From a virus: 31,584 nt of DNA. A program made the position numbers and the translations under genes. The stretch covers positions 1 to 31,584 of IMG/VR virus record IMGVR_UViG_3300032285_001048; one strand, given 5' to 3'. Positions 2,466 to 31,584 of the stretch are shown here, in pieces; position 1 is the stretch's first letter; the number at the start of each line of letters is the position of its first letter. Below the pieces are notes generated by a model. That model was not told where the DNA came from. It worked only from the letters and a program-made list of their open reading frames with translations, and searched no databases.

Positions 2466-2855
2466 TTACCCCCTTAGTGCTTCGTCAAGTGAAATTTCGC
2501 TGTAATCGTGCCTGTTTGTCATCCCAACCTTCACTTTGATGCCCTCTGACGTTACTTGTAACCCCATTTTGGGCATAAATACGGGCTGAGATTCTTTTCT
2601 GTAGTCCACATAGCGGGTGTTATCCCGCCTTTTCATGACCTTCACATTCCCTGCTTTCCACTGCTGGTAGGCCTTACTGACCCTACGCTGGACGTTTTCA
2701 GTCAGTGGTTCTGCGTTGTAGATGAATACATCGTAGAAATGCCCGTAACTTATCCCTGCAAGTTCGGCAAAAAGGGCGATAGAGATGCCCCTTTCCTTGT
2801 CTGCAACGAACCGCTGCATGTGTTTTGTAAGCTCACGCTTGGATAAGGGGGTCAT
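2466..2855 (-). CDS. Putative helix-turn-helix DNA-binding protein (129 aa)
   Basis: Residues about 23-60 (ALFAELAGIS followed by YGHFYDV) look like the HTH of Cro/CI-type DNA-binding proteins: a helix with Leu-Ala-Gly at the turn, then a recognition-like helix. The C-terminal half is basic and beta-rich. A GGAG Shine-Dalgarno lies 7 nt before the ATG. The start overlaps the upstream glycosyltransferase-like gene by 23 nt. The gene lies between terminase and portal, so a small-terminase or regulatory role is possible. I cannot separate these; no classical small terminase is otherwise obvious in this operon. Confidence 0.6.
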   Translation of the reverse strand: MTPLSKRELTKHMQRFVADKERGISIALFAELAGISYGHFYDVFIYNAEPLTENVQRRVSKAYQQWKAGNVKVMKRRDNTRYVDYRKESQPVFMPKMGLQVTSEGIKVKVGMTNRHDYSEISLDEALRG

Positions 2856-3648
2856 ATTTGTACTCCGCTGTGTAACCTTGGCTTTCCATCCAGGCCATAA
2901 ACTTCATTTCACCGTGGCTGACACGGGGGTCGGCAGGAACAACAATGTGGCTGTCTGTCACCAGCTTCCTTGTCTGGGCATGATGGCCCAACAAAGACCC
3001 AAAATCAAAGTCTTCTTCGTGGAAACCAAGACCGACATATTCAATACTGAAGTGTTTGGCAATGTCGATAGGGCAATACTTGTAGCCGTAACCTTCCAGG
3101 ACAGGCTTGAGGATGGCTGACAACTGAGCATCCTCATTCCACCCGTGTATCTCATTGCTGTTCAGGTGCATGATGCCGTGCTTGTTACAGGCTTCCAGGA
3201 ATCTTTTGCTACGCAGGGAGAAGCCACCATTCTGGACAACAGAGACAGGCTCTGTGGCTTGTGTCCAGGCAAACTTCAAGTACAGGTGACCGTTACCAAA
3301 AGCGCAGTGTGAGGGTGCGCCTATGTAATCGTATTCGTAGTATTCAGGTTTGAAATTCTTTCCGTTCAACACCCAACCGTCATCTTGGACAATCAAGCAG
3401 AAGTCTGTCTCTATGTAAGCGTACAGGCTGTGCATGGTGAAGAGAGAGTAACCAAGATAGTCTATGGGGTGGCAACGCTTCCACTCCACACCCTCTGGCA
3501 TGTTCTCAGGCTTCTCAACAGAGATGAGCAGACCTCTGCTACCAGGCAACTCCCTCATAGACCTCACGATAGAGGGCAGAGCAGAAGCACCGTTGTTGTG
3601 TCCGTAGATGGACACGATAGTCAGTTGGTTATGAACCATACATGCCAA
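2833..3648 (-). CDS. DUF5672-type glycosyltransferase-like protein
   Basis: 271 aa. Hallmarks recalled for DUF5672 are visible in order: an N-terminal beta strand (LTIVSIYGHN), then IVQDDGWVLN near residue 103 (an acidic DD in place of a DxD sugar-nucleotide motif), YIGAP, and VQNGGFSLRSKRFLEA near residue 160. Late on, GWNEDAQLS provides an acidic pair like the catalytic ED of GT-A enzymes. Such proteins probably transfer sugars; the acceptor could be host surface glycan, virion protein or DNA, and nothing here decides it. The start at 3648 overlaps the terminase end by 20 nt; Met4 is an alternative start. It is a cargo gene between terminase and portal. Confidence 0.75.
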   Translation of the reverse strand: MACMVHNQLTIVSIYGHNNGASALPSIVRSMRELPGSRGLLISVEKPENMPEGVEWKRCHPIDYLGYSLFTMHSLYAYIETDFCLIVQDDGWVLNGKNFKPEYYEYDYIGAPSHCAFGNGHLYLKFAWTQATEPVSVVQNGGFSLRSKRFLEACNKHGIMHLNSNEIHGWNEDAQLSAILKPVLEGYGYKYCPIDIAKHFSIEYVGLGFHEEDFDFGSLLGHHAQTRKLVTDSHIVVPADPRVSHGEMKFMAWMESQGYTAEYKYDPLIQA

Positions 3649-14293: not shown

Positions 14294-14523
14294 TATCTGC
14301 ACCCCCATCTCTTTCTTGCTGCTTTGCCACGCTCACCCGTCCAACTCTTGCTTCTGGCACAAAATGACTTGTGGCGTGGCCCTGATTTTGTTGGGGCTTT
14401 CAAGTTGCTACCTGTAGCCCTGTTTGTCTTTGCTCTGCCTTTGGCAGTCAAGCCACCACCCGCCTTGACGGACAGCTTTTCGCCTCTGCCAACAGACAGG
14501 TTGGGTGACTTCTTTTTACGCAT
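14293..14523 (-). CDS. DUF6321-like basic phage protein (76 aa)
   Basis: It carries GGGLTAKGRAKTNRATGSNLKAP and then GPRHKSFCARS, ending in KRWGCR, a pattern I recall from DUF6321 proteins (LTAKGRAKYNRATGSNLKAP, SFCARM, KWKC). It is very basic with two Cys. The start overlaps the endolysin stop by 8 nt. It is a structural or DNA-condensing candidate; function unknown. Confidence 0.7.
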   Translation of the reverse strand: MRKKKSPNLSVGRGEKLSVKAGGGLTAKGRAKTNRATGSNLKAPTKSGPRHKSFCARSKSWTGERGKAARKRWGCR

Positions 14524-14944
14524 ATTCTCTTGTGCCTGACTTATCAATGATGAGAGCCATGTTTCTAGGCTGGATGTCTTCATGGTTGGGAATAGAGACA
14601 TGTGTCCAGCGGTCAAACTCACGGATACATTGGTCGTAAGGCAGACCAGAATTGATAATGGCAGACACCACTTCATCTGGAGTCATGCCAGGTACACGAA
14701 TGTCGGCAGCACAGCCATGACGGTGCTGAGACTTGTCGGTAGAACCCACAGCCTTGTTGACCTCGGCAGAGCGGAAAGCTGAGTTAATCATGATGGGTTT
14801 GCCACCCAAGACTTCTTTCACCTGCTCCAGAAAGTTTGCCAGACGAACCAGGTTTACCATCTCGTCTTCGTTGGGCGTGTTGTCAAACTCACGGTGGTCG
14901 GTGTGGGTGAGTTCTTCGTAGGTAAAGTTTTCTGACAAGTTCAT
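14516..14944 (-). CDS. Endolysin, M15 peptidase family
   Basis: 142 aa. A zinc peptidase cutting the peptide of peptidoglycan. The M15 signature SxHxxGxAxD is exact: Ser72, His74, Gly77, Ala79, Asp81; the third zinc ligand His115 lies in WTHVSI. SAFRS at 55-59 supplies the family Arg. There is no signal peptide, so it depends on the holin. The ATG overlaps the Rz stop (ATGA). Confidence 0.9.
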   Translation of the reverse strand: MNLSENFTYEELTHTDHREFDNTPNEDEMVNLVRLANFLEQVKEVLGGKPIMINSAFRSAEVNKAVGSTDKSQHRHGCAADIRVPGMTPDEVVSAIINSGLPYDQCIREFDRWTHVSIPNHEDIQPRNMALIIDKSGTREYA

Positions 14945-17955: not shown

Positions 17956-20175
17956 TTACTCCTTTGGGGGTTCACTGATACGTCTTTGCATTGCTCTTGC
18001 AAATGGGCTGTCTGTCAATTCACCAAGCGCAAAACGCTTTGTTCTTGACAACAATGATGTAAGGTCGCCAGGAGGAAGCTGTGCTCCTTCAAACATCCCA
18101 CGCATGTTTAACTGTCTTCCAGCAAGACCAGCTTCATACAAAGGATGGCTTTCAGGCAAATATTTAGTCAATTCACCTAAACGCTCAAGACTGACGTTAC
18201 CTTGCAATATGCCGTTCTTTCTTTCAAGTTCCAACAATAAAGAGTTGGCAGCATATTTTTTGTTTGTGTCTTTGAACAAATCTGCTATTTCAGGATTGCT
18301 TCTCTCAATAGCTGCATCTATTTCACGCAACAACTGACCAGCTCTGTACTTATCTTGACCAGACAATCTGTACGTCAAGTCAGATAAGTTGCTTCTCAAT
18401 GCTTGCAGTTCTCGTCCATTAACTCCACCAGCCATAGACACTTGAGGATTTAATGCAGGCTCAGAAGCGACAGTTTCTTCAATGACATTTGGTTTCCAAT
18501 TAGCACGATAAAACTCTTCTACTTCTTTTGCCAATCCAATATGACCAGTTACACGTTCGTAAATAGATTTCCATGTCTTAGCAACATTGGCAAAGAACTT
18601 CTCAACAACAGTTGTAGGTTCTTTTGTTGTGGTTATCCATCGTGAGGTTTGTTCGGCAAACCACTCTGCAAAATTACGCAAATACTTCTGCTCATACTCT
18701 CTGCTTGGTATTTTTGTTCTGAAGTCTTCAGAGTACTTCGCTGCCGTTATTGGGCGATATTGTTCAGTCGTTTTTGTGCCAAGCCTTGTGCTTTTACGAT
18801 GTTGCTCAAAGGCTTTGTAAATTTCTGATTGAACATTTGGCGGTGCGTATCTCAACAAATGATGTTCAGCAACATGACCAAATTCATGCAAAGCAGTGGC
18901 AATCGCACCTTCTCTATCCATGCCTGTGCGAATGACAATGTTTCCTGAAGTACCTGCCATTCCGTACGTGTTTCCATCTTTATCTACGCCAAACCAAACC
19001 TTTGGCTTGACACCAAGATTCAGATTTTTTGCCAATTCATCAATGGTTTTTTGTACTTCAGATGCGTGTTCAGGCGCATTTTTGGCAGTTGCCTCTACCA
19101 AATTTGACCACTCTCTACGCATGTTTGCGCTCATTGGGTCTGGTTCTGACAAAGGCGAAAATGGCTTTTTCTTGTAAGCAGCCAAACGCTGATTCAATGC
19201 CTGTATTTCATTCCATCGGCCCAAAATATTGTCAGCAGTCTTTGAGATGCCAGAAACTTTTGCGGGGTCAATAGACGCTTCAAATTCAGCCGCTTTGTTG
19301 GCTGCATTGGCAAGAGTCTCATCAATTTTCAATTCTTTTGGCTTTGCTTCTGTACCAAAAATTTCATCGTATTTTGAACCCAGTTGTTTTTGGGTATTTT
19401 CAAGATGAGGTTTTGTAACTTTACCAAGACCAGCTTTATTTCCTGTAGCAGAAGTCACCTCTTCGTTGGCAAGAGTTTGATTTTTTCTCATCCTCTTCAA
19501 GTCGTAACCAGGTGAACCCAAAGGCTTGACTTCTCTCAACTGACCAGGTTCAAACTCATACCCCATAGCTTCACGTTTTCTTGCAAGCTGTTCAACAGAT
19601 GGAGTAGTCTTTCCAACAACAGCTTCAACGCCTCTACGAATGGGATATGCAGCACCAGTCCTTAAACCTTTGCCTAATTCTTCGGCTCTGGAAGTGGCTC
19701 TTTGAATAGCGGGTAAAGCGGCTACTTGCCTTGCAGCGGGAGCGGCAGCTTGCATTGCGCCTTCAACAGCGCCACCCATTCCCAACACGGGCGGCAATCC
19801 TTCTAATGCCTTGCCTAATTTTTCAGCAACAGCCTGACCACCACGGGTTTTGAATTGATACCCGTACTTTTGCATAAAGTCAGCCATAGGCTCGGCTTTG
19901 CCACCAGTAGCTACAGCACCAATCAAACTGGCAGGTATGTTTTGAACCATTGATATTGGCACTTCAGGGGCTGCCAATACTTGTTCAAAAAATCCTGGCT
20001 CTTGCTTTTTGGCAACTTTTGCACGTTCTTTTGCTTGTCTTTCGCTTACAGCAAGACTTTCTTTTGTCGGAACTGATAAATCTACAGGCGCAGCAGTATC
20101 TCTCGCATCAAACTTATCAAAAGGATTTGATGTGCTTGCAGATTTATCAAATGCGTCAAAAGGATTTGTAGCCAT
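17956..20175 (-). CDS. Large internal/ejection-type protein with HExxH metalloprotease domain (739 aa)
   Basis: N-terminal NPFDAFD/NPFDKFD repeats, Ala-rich helices at about 130-170 and a long coiled region are typical of internal virion proteins ejected with DNA. Inside, HEFGHVAEHH (430-439) is a zinc metalloprotease motif with Glu431 as catalytic base; FAEWFAEQ near 502-509 gives a candidate third ligand. The region about 390-560 forms this domain, flanked by helical ejection-protein sequence. It could cut cell-wall peptides or virion proteins. The start overlaps the upstream stop by 1 nt. Confidence 0.78.
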   Translation of the reverse strand: MATNPFDAFDKSASTSNPFDKFDARDTAAPVDLSVPTKESLAVSERQAKERAKVAKKQEPGFFEQVLAAPEVPISMVQNIPASLIGAVATGGKAEPMADFMQKYGYQFKTRGGQAVAEKLGKALEGLPPVLGMGGAVEGAMQAAAPAARQVAALPAIQRATSRAEELGKGLRTGAAYPIRRGVEAVVGKTTPSVEQLARKREAMGYEFEPGQLREVKPLGSPGYDLKRMRKNQTLANEEVTSATGNKAGLGKVTKPHLENTQKQLGSKYDEIFGTEAKPKELKIDETLANAANKAAEFEASIDPAKVSGISKTADNILGRWNEIQALNQRLAAYKKKPFSPLSEPDPMSANMRREWSNLVEATAKNAPEHASEVQKTIDELAKNLNLGVKPKVWFGVDKDGNTYGMAGTSGNIVIRTGMDREGAIATALHEFGHVAEHHLLRYAPPNVQSEIYKAFEQHRKSTRLGTKTTEQYRPITAAKYSEDFRTKIPSREYEQKYLRNFAEWFAEQTSRWITTTKEPTTVVEKFFANVAKTWKSIYERVTGHIGLAKEVEEFYRANWKPNVIEETVASEPALNPQVSMAGGVNGRELQALRSNLSDLTYRLSGQDKYRAGQLLREIDAAIERSNPEIADLFKDTNKKYAANSLLLELERKNGILQGNVSLERLGELTKYLPESHPLYEAGLAGRQLNMRGMFEGAQLPPGDLTSLLSRTKRFALGELTDSPFARAMQRRISEPPKE

Positions 20176-21692
20176 TACATTCCCTCTGGCAAATAGCCAT
20201 ATTTTGATTTGAACTGCTCTTTGAACTCAGGATGTTGTTTCAAATACTGAACAGCCTCTGTTGGAGCTTGAACTCTACTGGAAGGTTGAGGTGCAGAAGC
20301 GGCAGATGGTCTTTTCTTATCAACAAAAGTCTGTCTGACAATATCAGGCAATCTTGTTTCAAAGTCATGCCGACCTGTGGCAGATTCATAATGTGCTCTT
20401 GTTGTATCAAGGCGGCTATAAATCAATTCTTTGACTGTATCAATAGCACCTTGCAACTGTGCTGGAGACTTGATTTCACTGAAAATTTGTTCAGCTTCTT
20501 TACGGTCTGCCAATGCGCCAGCAGTACCCGTAATAGCTTTAACAACTTCACCCGCAACAGCTTGTTTTGCAGCGTTGAAATTGGTTACTTCTGGATTTCC
20601 AGTTTGAACAGCAATGTAATTCAATGCTTGGTTGGCAAGTTGTGTATCTTTGTTATTCAGAGCTTCACCAAGAGTCTCTAAACTTTGCAAGTGACCTGCA
20701 ACTGTTGTAAACGCTTGCAACTGTTTTGCACCAGTACCGTTGGGATTGGTGTAGTTCCTCAAAGCTAAATCACGCTGTCCATAATCCATTTCGTTGTAAT
20801 TTGGATTGATTTGACGGACACGGGCCATGATTTGTGGACGAGTTTTGTCTCTCAAACCTGGTGGTTTTTGTGCATAGTTGGCAATAGCTTGTGCGCTACT
20901 TTCAACGTCACTTGTCACATTTGCACCAGCAGGGGCTGTACCCAGACCAGCTTTTACACCTGCTCTGAAAGCAATCTCAGCTTCTTTTGCTTTCAGTTTT
21001 TCATACGATTCAATGCCTTTATCAATACCCTTGTGTAAATCTTTTACGGTGTTGTAAGCATTGAGCAAATAACCTTTGTCAAGTTGAGCCTGAACAATGG
21101 CACTGCCAGCTTTGACAGCAGCCATCTTTGCTTCTGCCATTGCAGCATCTTTGTCGATAGGTGCTAACTTGATAGCATCTTCCATCTCTCTGCGGAACTC
21201 TTCATGTTTCTTAATCATGGCCTTGAAGTTCTTATCAAACTCTGTGGCTTCTTTTTTGTACAAGTCACCACGACCTTTTTGATAACCCTCAAGCATGGCA
21301 TTCATGTTTCCCAATGCCATCTGTGCATTGTTCTTGCCAGCAACTGCTCCAATCACGCTGATTAACGAAAACAAGCCAGCAATATCTTGCACATTGTCTT
21401 TTGTTGGAACAAACGCAGGAAGTGGTTCTGTTTCTAGTTTGCCTTGATATGCTTGTTGAGCACCACGAATATCTTCAGCTTGTTTTTTTGTACTTTCTTG
21501 TTCAGCCGTAGCAATCATTTCTTCTTGCTGTTGCTTGGCTTTTGCCGCACGACCTTCTGCCTCAGTAATACCAGTTTGAAGCTGCGATTCACTTGTAATG
21601 TATGGCTCATCCAAAACTTGCCGTGTACGCAAAGATTTGGCTAATCCTGCATCAATATCAGATTTTGGTTCTTTAACAGCTTGTGTTGCCAT
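20175..21692 (-). CDS. Internal/ejection-type virion protein (505 aa)
   Basis: Lys/Ala/Glu/Gln-rich, mostly helical. An N-terminal coiled coil (AKAKQQQEEMIATAEQESTKKQ), a hydrophobic patch near 105-125 (DIAGLFSLISVIGAVAG), long helices, and a C-terminal YLKQHPEFKEQFKSKYGYLPEG motif. Its place beside the HExxH protein and two other Ala-rich genes fits an ejection-protein set. The ATG follows the upstream stop by two nucleotides. Confidence 0.7.
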   Translation of the reverse strand: MATQAVKEPKSDIDAGLAKSLRTRQVLDEPYITSESQLQTGITEAEGRAAKAKQQQEEMIATAEQESTKKQAEDIRGAQQAYQGKLETEPLPAFVPTKDNVQDIAGLFSLISVIGAVAGKNNAQMALGNMNAMLEGYQKGRGDLYKKEATEFDKNFKAMIKKHEEFRREMEDAIKLAPIDKDAAMAEAKMAAVKAGSAIVQAQLDKGYLLNAYNTVKDLHKGIDKGIESYEKLKAKEAEIAFRAGVKAGLGTAPAGANVTSDVESSAQAIANYAQKPPGLRDKTRPQIMARVRQINPNYNEMDYGQRDLALRNYTNPNGTGAKQLQAFTTVAGHLQSLETLGEALNNKDTQLANQALNYIAVQTGNPEVTNFNAAKQAVAGEVVKAITGTAGALADRKEAEQIFSEIKSPAQLQGAIDTVKELIYSRLDTTRAHYESATGRHDFETRLPDIVRQTFVDKKRPSAASAPQPSSRVQAPTEAVQYLKQHPEFKEQFKSKYGYLPEGM

Positions 21693-21694
21693 GA

Positions 21695-22711
21695 TTAAGC
21701 CTGTGGTGTGGGTTGAGCAGGTGCGCCAGCGGTTTGAGGAGCAACACCGTACAAGGTACGCATGATGTTATTCATGTAGTTACTGCTCAACTGTTGGACA
21801 TACTGGTCAGCTTGCAAACCAGATTTGATAGCACCCAAAGCAATGTTGTCTCCAATGCCAGACAACTTCAATCCGTAGTCGTACTGCTGTTGCAACAAAT
21901 TATTACGGAATGCTTCTATTTGAGCGGCTGATTGCTGTGCGCCTACACCGCCACGGGAAGAGGCCTGTTGTGCCAACTGAGCCTGAACCGTTTGCATTTG
22001 TTGCTGTGCGGCAGGAGTCAACTCGCCACGTTGGGCAGCGGCAGAAAGTTGTTGGCCTTGTTGCTGATATGGACGAGCCATAGATTGCATTTCTTCTTTG
22101 GCAGCTTGACCTTGTTTGGCGGCTTTGTTTGCCATCAAAGTGGCAGCTAAAGACTGAAGACCACCCACACCCAATTTTTCCAACCTGTCACCTTTGGACA
22201 AATAATCTTTCAACTTGTCCATGTAACCTGGTTCGGTAGGAGCAGGTTCTGCTACTGGTGGCTTGCCGTAATCAGGGCCGTAAGTTGTTACGCCTGTTGG
22301 TGTTGGGCCAGCAGTGACTGTTGGTGCGGCTGTAGGAACAATCTGAGGAAAAACTTCAGGCCTTGCATACGATGCCGCCATAGCAGCAGGGTTGTATGCT
22401 GGAGCAGGTGCAGGAGCAGCGGCTGGAGCAGGTGGTAAATCTGTGCCTACAGGGGCAGCGGCTGTCTCAACAGGCTGAGTAGTTACGTCACCAGTAGGGA
22501 AGTTAGACTCAAAAGACATGCTCTCATCTTCAAAAGATGGAATGCCAGTGTCAGCATGGGGTTTACCACTACCACCTTGAGCTTTGAGCAAGGCAGCTTC
22601 TTCTGGGGTGATGTAGGCAAGCATGTGCCCTTCAGGAGCTTTTGCTTGAAGCAATTTAGCAATCTGACGCACATCTGCGCCCATGCGGGTCATTTTCTTT
22701 AGCGTTGCCAT
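21695..22711 (-). CDS. Pro/Ala/Gln-rich internal virion protein (338 aa)
   Basis: Starts with a basic helix (LKKMTRMGADVRQIAKLL), then a disordered Pro/Ala region at about 80-170 (PPAPAAAPAPAPAYNP) and a Gln-rich helical half (QQQGQQLSAAAQRGEL, LAQQASSRGG). It ends NIMRTLYGVAPQTAGAP. The composition matches ejection proteins near the tail gene clusters of podoviruses. It abuts the preceding stop with no gap. Confidence 0.68.
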   Translation of the reverse strand: MATLKKMTRMGADVRQIAKLLQAKAPEGHMLAYITPEEAALLKAQGGSGKPHADTGIPSFEDESMSFESNFPTGDVTTQPVETAAAPVGTDLPPAPAAAPAPAPAYNPAAMAASYARPEVFPQIVPTAAPTVTAGPTPTGVTTYGPDYGKPPVAEPAPTEPGYMDKLKDYLSKGDRLEKLGVGGLQSLAATLMANKAAKQGQAAKEEMQSMARPYQQQGQQLSAAAQRGELTPAAQQQMQTVQAQLAQQASSRGGVGAQQSAAQIEAFRNNLLQQQYDYGLKLSGIGDNIALGAIKSGLQADQYVQQLSSNYMNNIMRTLYGVAPQTAGAPAQPTPQA

Positions 22712-27601: not shown

Positions 27602-29596
27602 TTAGAACCTCACTCTCAATTCGTGTTCAAACTCAATCGTGTTAATAGTAAATGCAGGGTCAGAAGAAGTCATCGTCAAACCCAAATACTTACCATACTG
27701 TTGTGCATCTGACTTGTACAGGGCATACCCCGCACTTGTCAACCACCCTATTGTCGCCAAACTGTTGTTCTGCCAAGGGATTGTTGTCCCTGAATTGTTG
27801 TACCAAGTCACACTGTTGTTCAACGTGTAAACAGGACTAGAACCGCTCTCACTATCCACGGTTACATTTAACGTGCCTCCTGTAGTGAGAGTAGCCTCAA
27901 TACCAAACTTTAATGCTTGCTTGGTACGGATAGGGTCTTTCATGGGAGACAGGGATGTCTGTATCTGGCTAGAGACATTTGCAGTTGCATCCCCGTACAG
28001 CTTATACAAAGCCGTATCCGTCACCCCATACAAGCTAATCAACCCGCCTACAGGAGCAGATGTTGTGTATGTCAGCGCACCCTGGCTGGTGATAAACCAC
28101 TTCTTTTCAAAAAACACCGCCTGTACATACCTGCCACCTGTAGCGTAGGGGTAGGTTGAAGACAAATAGAAGTTGAATGCCGCACACAGGATGTTGTTGA
28201 GCAGGACTTGACCGCCTGTAATGGGCTTGGTGAAGTCGATATAGGGAAAAATACCGTCAAGCTGGTCAGAAATCTTGCTGGTAGTAGAGCCGACAAGGGC
28301 ATACACACCGTAGTTGTTCATGAACAACACTGAACGGAAGTAGGGAAAAACCGCATATTTCAGCTTGCTACCGACAGAAGCAGACACGTTGGTGTTGGTA
28401 AACAGGGTAGAACCTGTAGTAGTTACCCTAACATCCGAGAACACGTTGATGCTGTCATCCCCGTAGATATACAGGAAGTTGTTGGCAGACATCATGTACT
28501 GGATGTTGCCGTGCAGAGTCGAATCTGAAAGTGTCAGAGAGCCAGCAGAAACAGAAGTGAAGTCAGTAGGGGTAACGCTGGACGAATACGTCACCGTGCG
28601 CCCTGTAGACACCCAGACACGACCAGAAAAGGTAGCCACGCTGGAAATCTGGTCTAAGTTGGGAACACCTATGGCTGTAGCAGTGGTGTTTCCTGTGGGT
28701 GTGGGAGGTGCGGCAATAGCAATGGTGGGCACACTGGTGTAGTTGTTGCCTACGTTGGTCATGATGACCTGTGTGACTGCATTACCGTACACGATGGCTG
28801 TCGCAGCGGCATTTGCACCGCCACCACTGGTGATTGTGACGCTTGGAGGTGAAGCAGGGTTGTATCCAGACCCGCTATTTGTAACCTGAATGGCAAGCGC
28901 ACCCTTGGTGAAGGTCAAAACCTGGGCAATAGCATTTGCACCGCTACCACCACCACCTGTAAGAGTCACTGTAGGTGCTGCTGTGTACCCGCTACCACCG
29001 TTGGTGATGGCAATAGAGGACACGGTATTGGCTGTGATGGTGGCTGTGGCTGTAGCCTGGACACCATTTGATTGATTGGGGGCTGAAATAGTGACTGCTG
29101 GCGCAGTGACATAGCCTGTACCCCTGTTTGTGAGGCCAATCTGACCTACACCGCCCACAGCAAGCAAGTCAGTGCCATTCCAGGTAAACAAGCCCTTGTC
29201 AGGGTCACCTATAAAGACTTCCTCGTTCTTCCACTGTGCAACAGAGACGTTTGAGGATGAGAATGTGCCAGTAACAGCCACATTTCCTTTTGTAGCCATA
29301 TCTACTTTGAAGTATTCACCCCGTCCGTTGGCTTCAAAAGCCAGAATGTAGTCAGACAAGCCCAGATTGCAACTGGTCAGGCTGGTGACTACATTGCCAA
29401 ACGACACAGCGGCATTACCAGAATCTTTGACAGTAGTTTGAGCAGGAACAATCTTGATGTTGCCAAAGCCAATAGGCATGGCGTTCTCAATCCAGGAGAA
29501 CTCTTCCTCGTCAATAGCTGTTCTATTGGCCTTGGTGTTCAGGCCTTTGAAGTTCTTATAGACAGCATAAGATTTTTTTTGCTCTGCTGCTGCCAT
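27602..29596 (-). CDS. Tail hub/stabilisation-like protein with four GSGY repeats (664 aa)
   Basis: Starts [20 protein letters not shown], a pattern of podovirus tail hub or stabilisation proteins, with a beta-propeller-like run ([30 protein letters not shown]). Residues about 151-310 hold four tandem repeats of about 40 aa with the core TNxGxGYxxxPxVTI. It lies between fibre and adaptor genes. The TAATCATG junction lies upstream of its start. Confidence 0.76.
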
Positions 29597-29598
29597 GA

Positions 29599-30438
29599 TT
29601 AGAACGTGCTGTAGGGGTCAGGGATGCGCCTTGTATAGACAGAGTTCAACACTGCCTGTACATGCTTGAGATATTCTTGTTTATAGATTTCAGCCTCACC
29701 ATAACTCTGCTCTTTGTACTTGGCTTTGTAAGCCGCATAGAAAGCCACAGGTGTGGTGTAGGGGTCTTGAATAGGGTCAACAGCGTTAGGCGTGTTCAGA
29801 CTCAGTGCTGTTGGCAAGATGGTCGTGTCAATCTCAACAGGATAAGATTGGTCAGGCACAGGGCCAATGTAAATCTGTTGTTGTCCGTAGACAGAGAAAC
29901 ATACGGGTCTGCCGACATAGTTCTGCCAGTAGCGCAGTTGTGCGTTGAAGTTTGACCAGGGCAGGTAGCGCAGGGGAATGCGGCTGTTACCCCAATAAAT
30001 AGTGACGTTCAGGATGTCCAGGGTCGTGCCGTTAGACAAAGTGGCAAACGGAATAATCTCAGCAGGGCCAGAGTATGTCAGTTGTGCCGTACCGTCAGTG
30101 AACGGGGTGGACGGTGGGAACGTGTAGTTGGCAGCAGGGTAGGGAGGTGGTGTTGTGCCAAGCGTTCCAGATTGGGTAACTTGGTAAATGAAGATGTTGG
30201 AGAAGACAAACTGACCAGCAGTTACGGCTTGTCCAGCAGTCCAAATACTTGCAGGTACGCCAGTGTTGGAAATTGGGGTGGAGGTAATTTGCAGGGTACG
30301 CAAGCACCCCGTATCTCTCGCTACTCGCTCACGGGCATCGTTGATGTAGTCCGTCAGCTCCGAAGTAGACCAGAATACAGCGTTTGCGTCATGCAAGAGT
30401 CGCTGTACTTCCGTAATGTAGGAAGAGAGAGTTGCCAT
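29599..30438 (-). CDS. Head-tail adaptor protein (SU10/P22-adaptor-like)
   Basis: 279 aa. The N-terminus [43 protein letters not shown] matches the helix pattern of adaptors that dock below the portal. A beta insert follows, then [27 protein letters not shown] and a C-terminal helix ([25 protein letters not shown]). GAAGG precedes the ATG. It probably connects portal and tail hub. Confidence 0.82.
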
Positions 30439-31534: not shown

Positions 31535-31545
31535 GTCTTTTTCTC

Positions 31546-31584
31546 CTTACAGTGAAAGGTAGTTGTAACCCGTCACCTTGGTCA
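31546..31584 (-). CDS. C-terminal end of an upstream late gene (partial)
   Basis: On the minus strand the last codons read TKVTGYNYLSL then TAA (31548-31546), running off the right edge. The stop is 11 nt before the next gene's start. Gene order would put the major capsid protein here; the short tail is compatible but not diagnostic. Confidence 0.45.

Follow-up and report, generated by a model that had tools for sequence, protein, structure and literature searches.

Zincin metallopeptidases are an established component of proteins that phages inject at infection (Iyer 2017, PMC5512222; N4 gp50). Among the domains of phage polyvalent proteins they are described as the most frequent, and it is debated whether they cleave the chain that carries them, other virion proteins or proteins of the host. 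The locus described here, in a 31,584-base virus record from IMG/VR (hereafter the window, meaning the whole stretch of DNA analysed), raises this question for a zincin-like domain predicted within a probable ejection protein. What is new is an uncatalogued branch of zincins, found in a single-enzyme format on a small backbone that is probably an ejection protein, with natural plus/minus alleles and exchange. A lone zincin on such a backbone, with no second effector found and with plus/minus alleles in close relatives, offers a clean system to decide between the proposed targets, and the cassette gives a way to ask whether phages use injected proteases early against their hosts.

Genome context of the zincin-carrying gene

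The window encodes a terminase, an SU10-type portal and an SU10-type adaptor, and by these marker proteins the virus is an SU10-like short-tailed phage. On the minus strand, the adaptor gene (29599-30438) is followed by genes for a 664-aa nozzle-like protein, fibres, proteins of 381, 338, 505 and 739 aa, an M15 endolysin and other lysis proteins. Since no coat or scaffold gene was recognised in the window, and the portal lies at one end with small virion genes at the other (1-325 and 31535-31584), the record is probably incomplete.

The sequence-only reading had placed a zinc metalloprotease domain inside an internal virion protein, the 739-aa product, and had called the helices on either side ejection-protein-like. 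In the window, MW202825.1 and MW202496.1 alike, this gene position is the last of the ejection block and is followed by the lysis genes. Homologues of the 505-aa neighbour precede the equivalent gene in MW202825.1, Bradyrhizobium phage ppBeUSDA76-2 and MW202496.1; in the last of these, the next gene is annotated 'DNA injection protein' and is followed by a holin gene. The C-terminal backbone shows weak similarity to this 'DNA injection protein' (E 0.003, probability 10%, 108 columns) and to its counterpart in the Bradyrhizobium phage (E 0.0023). Comparisons with P22 gp16, by profile, and with P22 gp20 were uninformative. Gene position and weak 'DNA injection' similarity therefore make the backbone, flanking helices included, a probable ejection protein and not more. 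The presence of a conserved, inserted zincin-like domain was borne out, and the class of the protein that carries it is probable.

As the last protein of an ejection block before the lysis genes, helical and probably internal to the virion, the window protein is like P22 gp16, SU10 gp20-24 and T7 gp16. None of these proteins, by contrast, is known to carry a zincin: T7 gp16 (PMC8954989) and SU10 gp20 (PMC9509320) bear transglycosylase activity instead, and P22 gp16 has no detectable sequence relation to the window protein.

A conserved HExxH motif under purifying selection

The coordinates previously given for the gene proved exact, and its strand, which had been left unstated, is minus (Table 1). 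The motif HEFGHVAEHH is indeed found at residues 430-439 of the 739-aa ORF and contains the sole HExxH of the protein. The number of HExxH motifs expected from composition is 0.010, and 177 of 20,000 shuffled sequences had one. A chance motif was ruled out by conservation, because HEFGH and a downstream FxEW[FY]AEQ are present in 23/23 related viral-contig ORFs (some of them near-copies or from overlapping contigs), down to ~31% identity. In a 19-row alignment, the invariant residues are H430, E431, H434, E437, Q472, R474, P475, K480, Y481 and Y498, followed by E504, W505, A507, E508, Q509 and R512. Two motifs, QxRPxTA and FxEWFAEQ, are specific to this family of zincin domains. The dN/dS of the insert is ~0.05-0.19 where dS is unsaturated, and the conserved HExxH...E domain is, judging from these comparisons, under purifying selection.

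Table 1. Features of the zincin-carrying gene and its upstream neighbours (window coordinates)
Feature	Position	Strand	Residues or size	Basis and remarks
Zincin-carrying gene, whole	17956..20175	minus	739 aa	ATG start; probable ejection (internal virion) protein; ORF list, homologues, gene position
N-terminal region	19624..20175	minus	1-184	Low-confidence/disordered, pLDDT mostly <50
N-terminal half of helical backbone	19201..19623	minus	185-325	pLDDT ~75-93; aligns with insert-free L007 and L047
Inserted segment	18424..19200	minus	326-584	Missing from L047, L007 and L032, where the backbone halves are joined directly
Conserved zincin-like core	18472..19143	minus	~345-568	Alignments, AF2 model, profile and structural matches
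HEFGH motif	18874..18888	minus	430-434	Two predicted zinc ligands and predicted catalytic Glu (E431); invariant in alignment
FAEWFAEQ helix	18649..18672	minus	502-509	E504, W505, A507, E508 and Q509 invariant; helix 502-515 in model
C-terminal half of helical backbone	17959..18423	minus	585-739	pLDDT 72-91 over 581-700; alignment
Upstream neighbour, probable second ejection protein	20175..21692	minus	505 aa	One-base overlap with zincin gene
Neighbour, possible ejection protein	21695..22711	minus	338 aa	Position only; no convincing family match

Architecture of the protein and predicted fold of the insert

The full-length model shows mostly disorder over residues 1-180 and has the insert flanked by a long helix (309-335) and by the helices of the C-terminal part (583-700). 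The N-terminal region has mildly hydrophobic patches at ~72-90 and 130-148, with 19-residue Kyte-Doolittle maxima of 1.28 and 0.97. The domain had been described as ~170 residues long with helices on both sides. The helices were recovered (predicted at 181-335 and 583-700) but the size was not, the insert comprising ~255 residues (326-584) and its core ~345-568. We infer the boundaries of the insert, and that it is dispensable, from metagenomic contigs.

Structure prediction agrees with a metalloprotease fold. The AF2 model of the insert (core pLDDT ~80-93) has a zincin-like topology: an initial helix leads into three strands, which are followed by the HExxH helix, a further helical stretch and finally the EWFAEQ helix. 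HExxH falls in helix 421-442 and E504/E508 in helix 502-515. The order of helix, three strands, HExxH helix and Glu helix is that described for polyvalent-protein zincins (PMC5512222). Conservation of E504 and E508 suggests that the helix following the motif supplies the Glu expected as third ligand.

When the insert model was compared with solved structures using VIA-align, the top rows were mostly HExxH enzymes: HtpX (Z 6.7, 83 residues), Wss1 (5.9), selecase (5.2), the HExxH oxygenase ChlB (5.1), 3c37 (4.8) and lethal factor (4.7), together with aminopeptidases and BepA. Since every match stays below Z 8, the domain is not assigned to any one family. A Foldseek search of the PDB yielded nothing below E 0.001; N4 gp50 appeared weakly in its list. 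Among BFVD models, uncharacterised and polyvalent phage proteins lead the matches, which also include the internal core protein of Ralstonia phage RSB3 and a crAss zincin. A search with the full-length model returned mostly helical matches with Z < 8, uninterpretable for the backbone. A PDB sequence search with the domain profile found two methylases only, which we rejected as spurious because the alignment crosses the HExxH helix into an unrelated fold. On the modelled topology, the insert is predicted to be a zincin-like (gluzincin) domain.

Relationship to polyvalent-protein zincins and M48 peptidases

No Pfam, NCBIfam or PADLOC model convincingly recognises the zincin domain. In PHROGs, 8 of 16 members match phrog_4529, 'minor head protein and DNA pilot' (best E 2.9e-5). 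A defence-system assignment was rejected, PADLOC having returned a weak PtuA match only (E 0.011).

Relatives of the domain are housed in polyvalent proteins, with which the window protein thus shares a zincin hub domain. A domain of the same family, 38% identical, is part of a 2084-aa LPD38 protein of Methylobacterium sp. WL119 (profile E 2e-48); Microcystis phage Mae-Yong1326-1 has a more distant relative in an LPD1 protein of 2441 aa (profile E 5e-16). N4 gp50 and BPP-1 Bbp10 are matched weakly; for N4, comparing the profiles directly gave a probability of 16%. Within the family of the Methylobacterium relative, the domain was found in 1 of 248 genomes, namely the query itself. The LPD38 protein (L035:6939-13190) has two HExxH motifs, and its gene is directly preceded by a transglycosylase gene. 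Two HExxH motifs are also present in the Mae-Yong1326-1 protein (L008:5157-12479), which is annotated 'peptidoglycan transglycosylase' and has, besides LPD1, a CLCA_X-like stretch over the second motif.

Like the zincin metallopeptidases of polyvalent proteins (PMC5512222; e.g. N4 vRNAP gp50, residues 2130-2448), the domain in the window combines HExxH with a Glu in the next helix and has a three-strand core between helices. Those zincins ride on large proteins delivered at infection; here, delivery is predicted. Unlike polyvalent proteins, the window protein has 739 aa, one recognised enzymatic domain and no LPD domain; because no other domain was detected by Pfam, PHROGs or NCBIfam, we do not file it as a polyvalent protein.

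M48 peptidases (HtpX, BepA, 3c37) include HtpX, the best single solved-structure match. In sequence, the M48 model PF01435 matched weakly, scoring 13.9 bits against a curated cut-off of 20.3 (E 0.05), which leaves the domain outside that family. Unlike M48 peptidases, the window protein has no clear transmembrane helices around the motif.

Insert-free alleles and exchange of the insert

Homologues without the insert, the comparison called for by the sequence-only reading, do exist, and their junctions are clean. In contig L047, the gene encodes 474 aa, in which ...NIIERFNQARQQTG is joined directly to ATVSAVGVDGRELQRLRSEL..., whereas the window has residues 326-584 between them. MW202825.1 (L007) and MW202796.1 (L032) also lack the zincin domain. 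When MW202825.1, a complete circular 34-kb genome whose nozzle-like protein is 63% identical to that of the window, was searched throughout for the domain, no copy was found. Searches for insert-free homologues from single sequences yielded little; L047 came from a narrow profile of the C-terminal backbone.

L047 and the insert carrier L028, contigs with a common sample prefix, show 88% identity upstream, up to and including the gene start, and 83-86% identity downstream over the lysis genes. Between these shared flanks the gene body is replaced (L047:421-1842 compared with L028:4969-7335), so that the gene looks like a site of allelic replacement. At the same position, MW202753.1 (L033:5950-7851) encodes a 633-aa protein that has only an N-terminal segment in common with insert-free L007, i.e. 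a third, unrelated body on a shared start.

Nucleotide identities among carriers differ between insert and flanks. Between the window and L009, identity is 85 and 90% in the two flanks and 74% in the insert; between L009 and L010, the flanks have 83 and 82% and the insert 92%. Judging from these identities, the history of the insert among carriers differs from that of the backbone. A recent alien insertion was rejected, because GC and GC3 of insert and flanks are alike within genomes. The backbone tree does not separate insert-free forms as ancestral from insert-free forms as losses. Presence/absence, exchange and the low dN/dS of the insert together indicate a cassette that is old, maintained, exchangeable and optional.

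Predicted role of the zincin domain

As the last protein of an SU10-like ejection cassette, the backbone would leave the head with or before the DNA and would carry the zincin domain into the periplasm or cytoplasm. Zinc would be held by H430, H434 and probably E504, with E431 acting as the general base that activates water, and E508 might give second-shell support, by analogy to the ExxxD of gluzincins. Its substrates would be few, perhaps a single protein, and most likely of host origin, e.g. a defence, envelope or regulatory factor. We give roughly even chances to this reading, in which the zincin is an accessory peptidase that reaches its site during entry and cleaves proteins of the host or of the entry machinery. 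Within it, a host substrate appears most likely because the cassette is optional, is exchanged among relatives and is also found in giant phage polyvalent proteins. Natural presence/absence and exchange favour an accessory, host-facing role; exchange falls short of proving a host target. More tentatively, the domain may be a swappable single-enzyme protease cassette in an ejection protein. It would enter the cell together with the DNA and, before any phage gene is expressed, cut a particular host protein with a defence or regulatory function; phages sharing a habitat would gain, lose and exchange the cassette according to their hosts.

The protease might instead arm the ejection machinery by cleaving the backbone in which it sits, or the 505-aa and 338-aa proteins packaged with it, either inside the head or while ejection is under way. 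The insert-free relatives keep both the backbone and the neighbouring genes, so such a step is not generally required, and no second effector domain to be released was found in the window protein by Pfam, PHROGs or NCBIfam. The placement of the domain does suit self-processing, since a cut there would separate the two backbone halves. Precedents point both ways: self-processing has been proposed for polyvalent-protein zincins and P1 DdrB is processed before packaging (PMC5512222), but N4 gp50 is packaged unprocessed. Overall, we regard processing of the chain or its virion partners as rather unlikely.

That the domain is no protease at all, being either similar to alpha-ketoglutarate-dependent HExxH oxygenases or a catalytically dead binding domain, is improbable. 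HExxH is also found outside proteases, as a paper on N4 points out (PMC12633501), and ChlB gave some of the longest structural alignments (Z 5.1 over 133 residues and Z 5.5 over 139). However, the catalytic Glu never varies, nor do two Glu downstream of it, as expected for gluzincins, and most other top structural matches are peptidases.

Opening of the cell wall by a peptidoglycan peptidase during DNA entry, which the sequence-only reading had offered as one role, is disfavoured and we consider it very improbable. Wall peptidases usually belong to M15, M23 or NlpC/P60 and are not HExxH gluzincins, which counts against it, as does the transglycosylase encoded just before the Methylobacterium domain protein. 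Ejection proteins do bear wall-degrading domains (T7 gp16, PMC8954989; SU10 gp20, PMC9509320), and neither the window nor the carrier records searched yielded an SLT or M23 domain, but the insert-free relatives lack SLT and M23 as well, so neither of these two families compensates for the missing insert.

Other features of the window and its relatives

The nozzle-like protein (27602-29596) has glycine-rich repeats of the YTxxPTVTIxxGGGxGA type, matching cyanophage baseplate-wedge and structural proteins. A DUF5672 (glycosyltransferase-like) gene (2833-3648) lies between the terminase and portal genes. The endolysin varies among relatives independently of the zincin insert: it is of the M15 type in the window (14516-14944) and a different one, GH108-like by eye, in L028 (L028:10143-10652) and L047.
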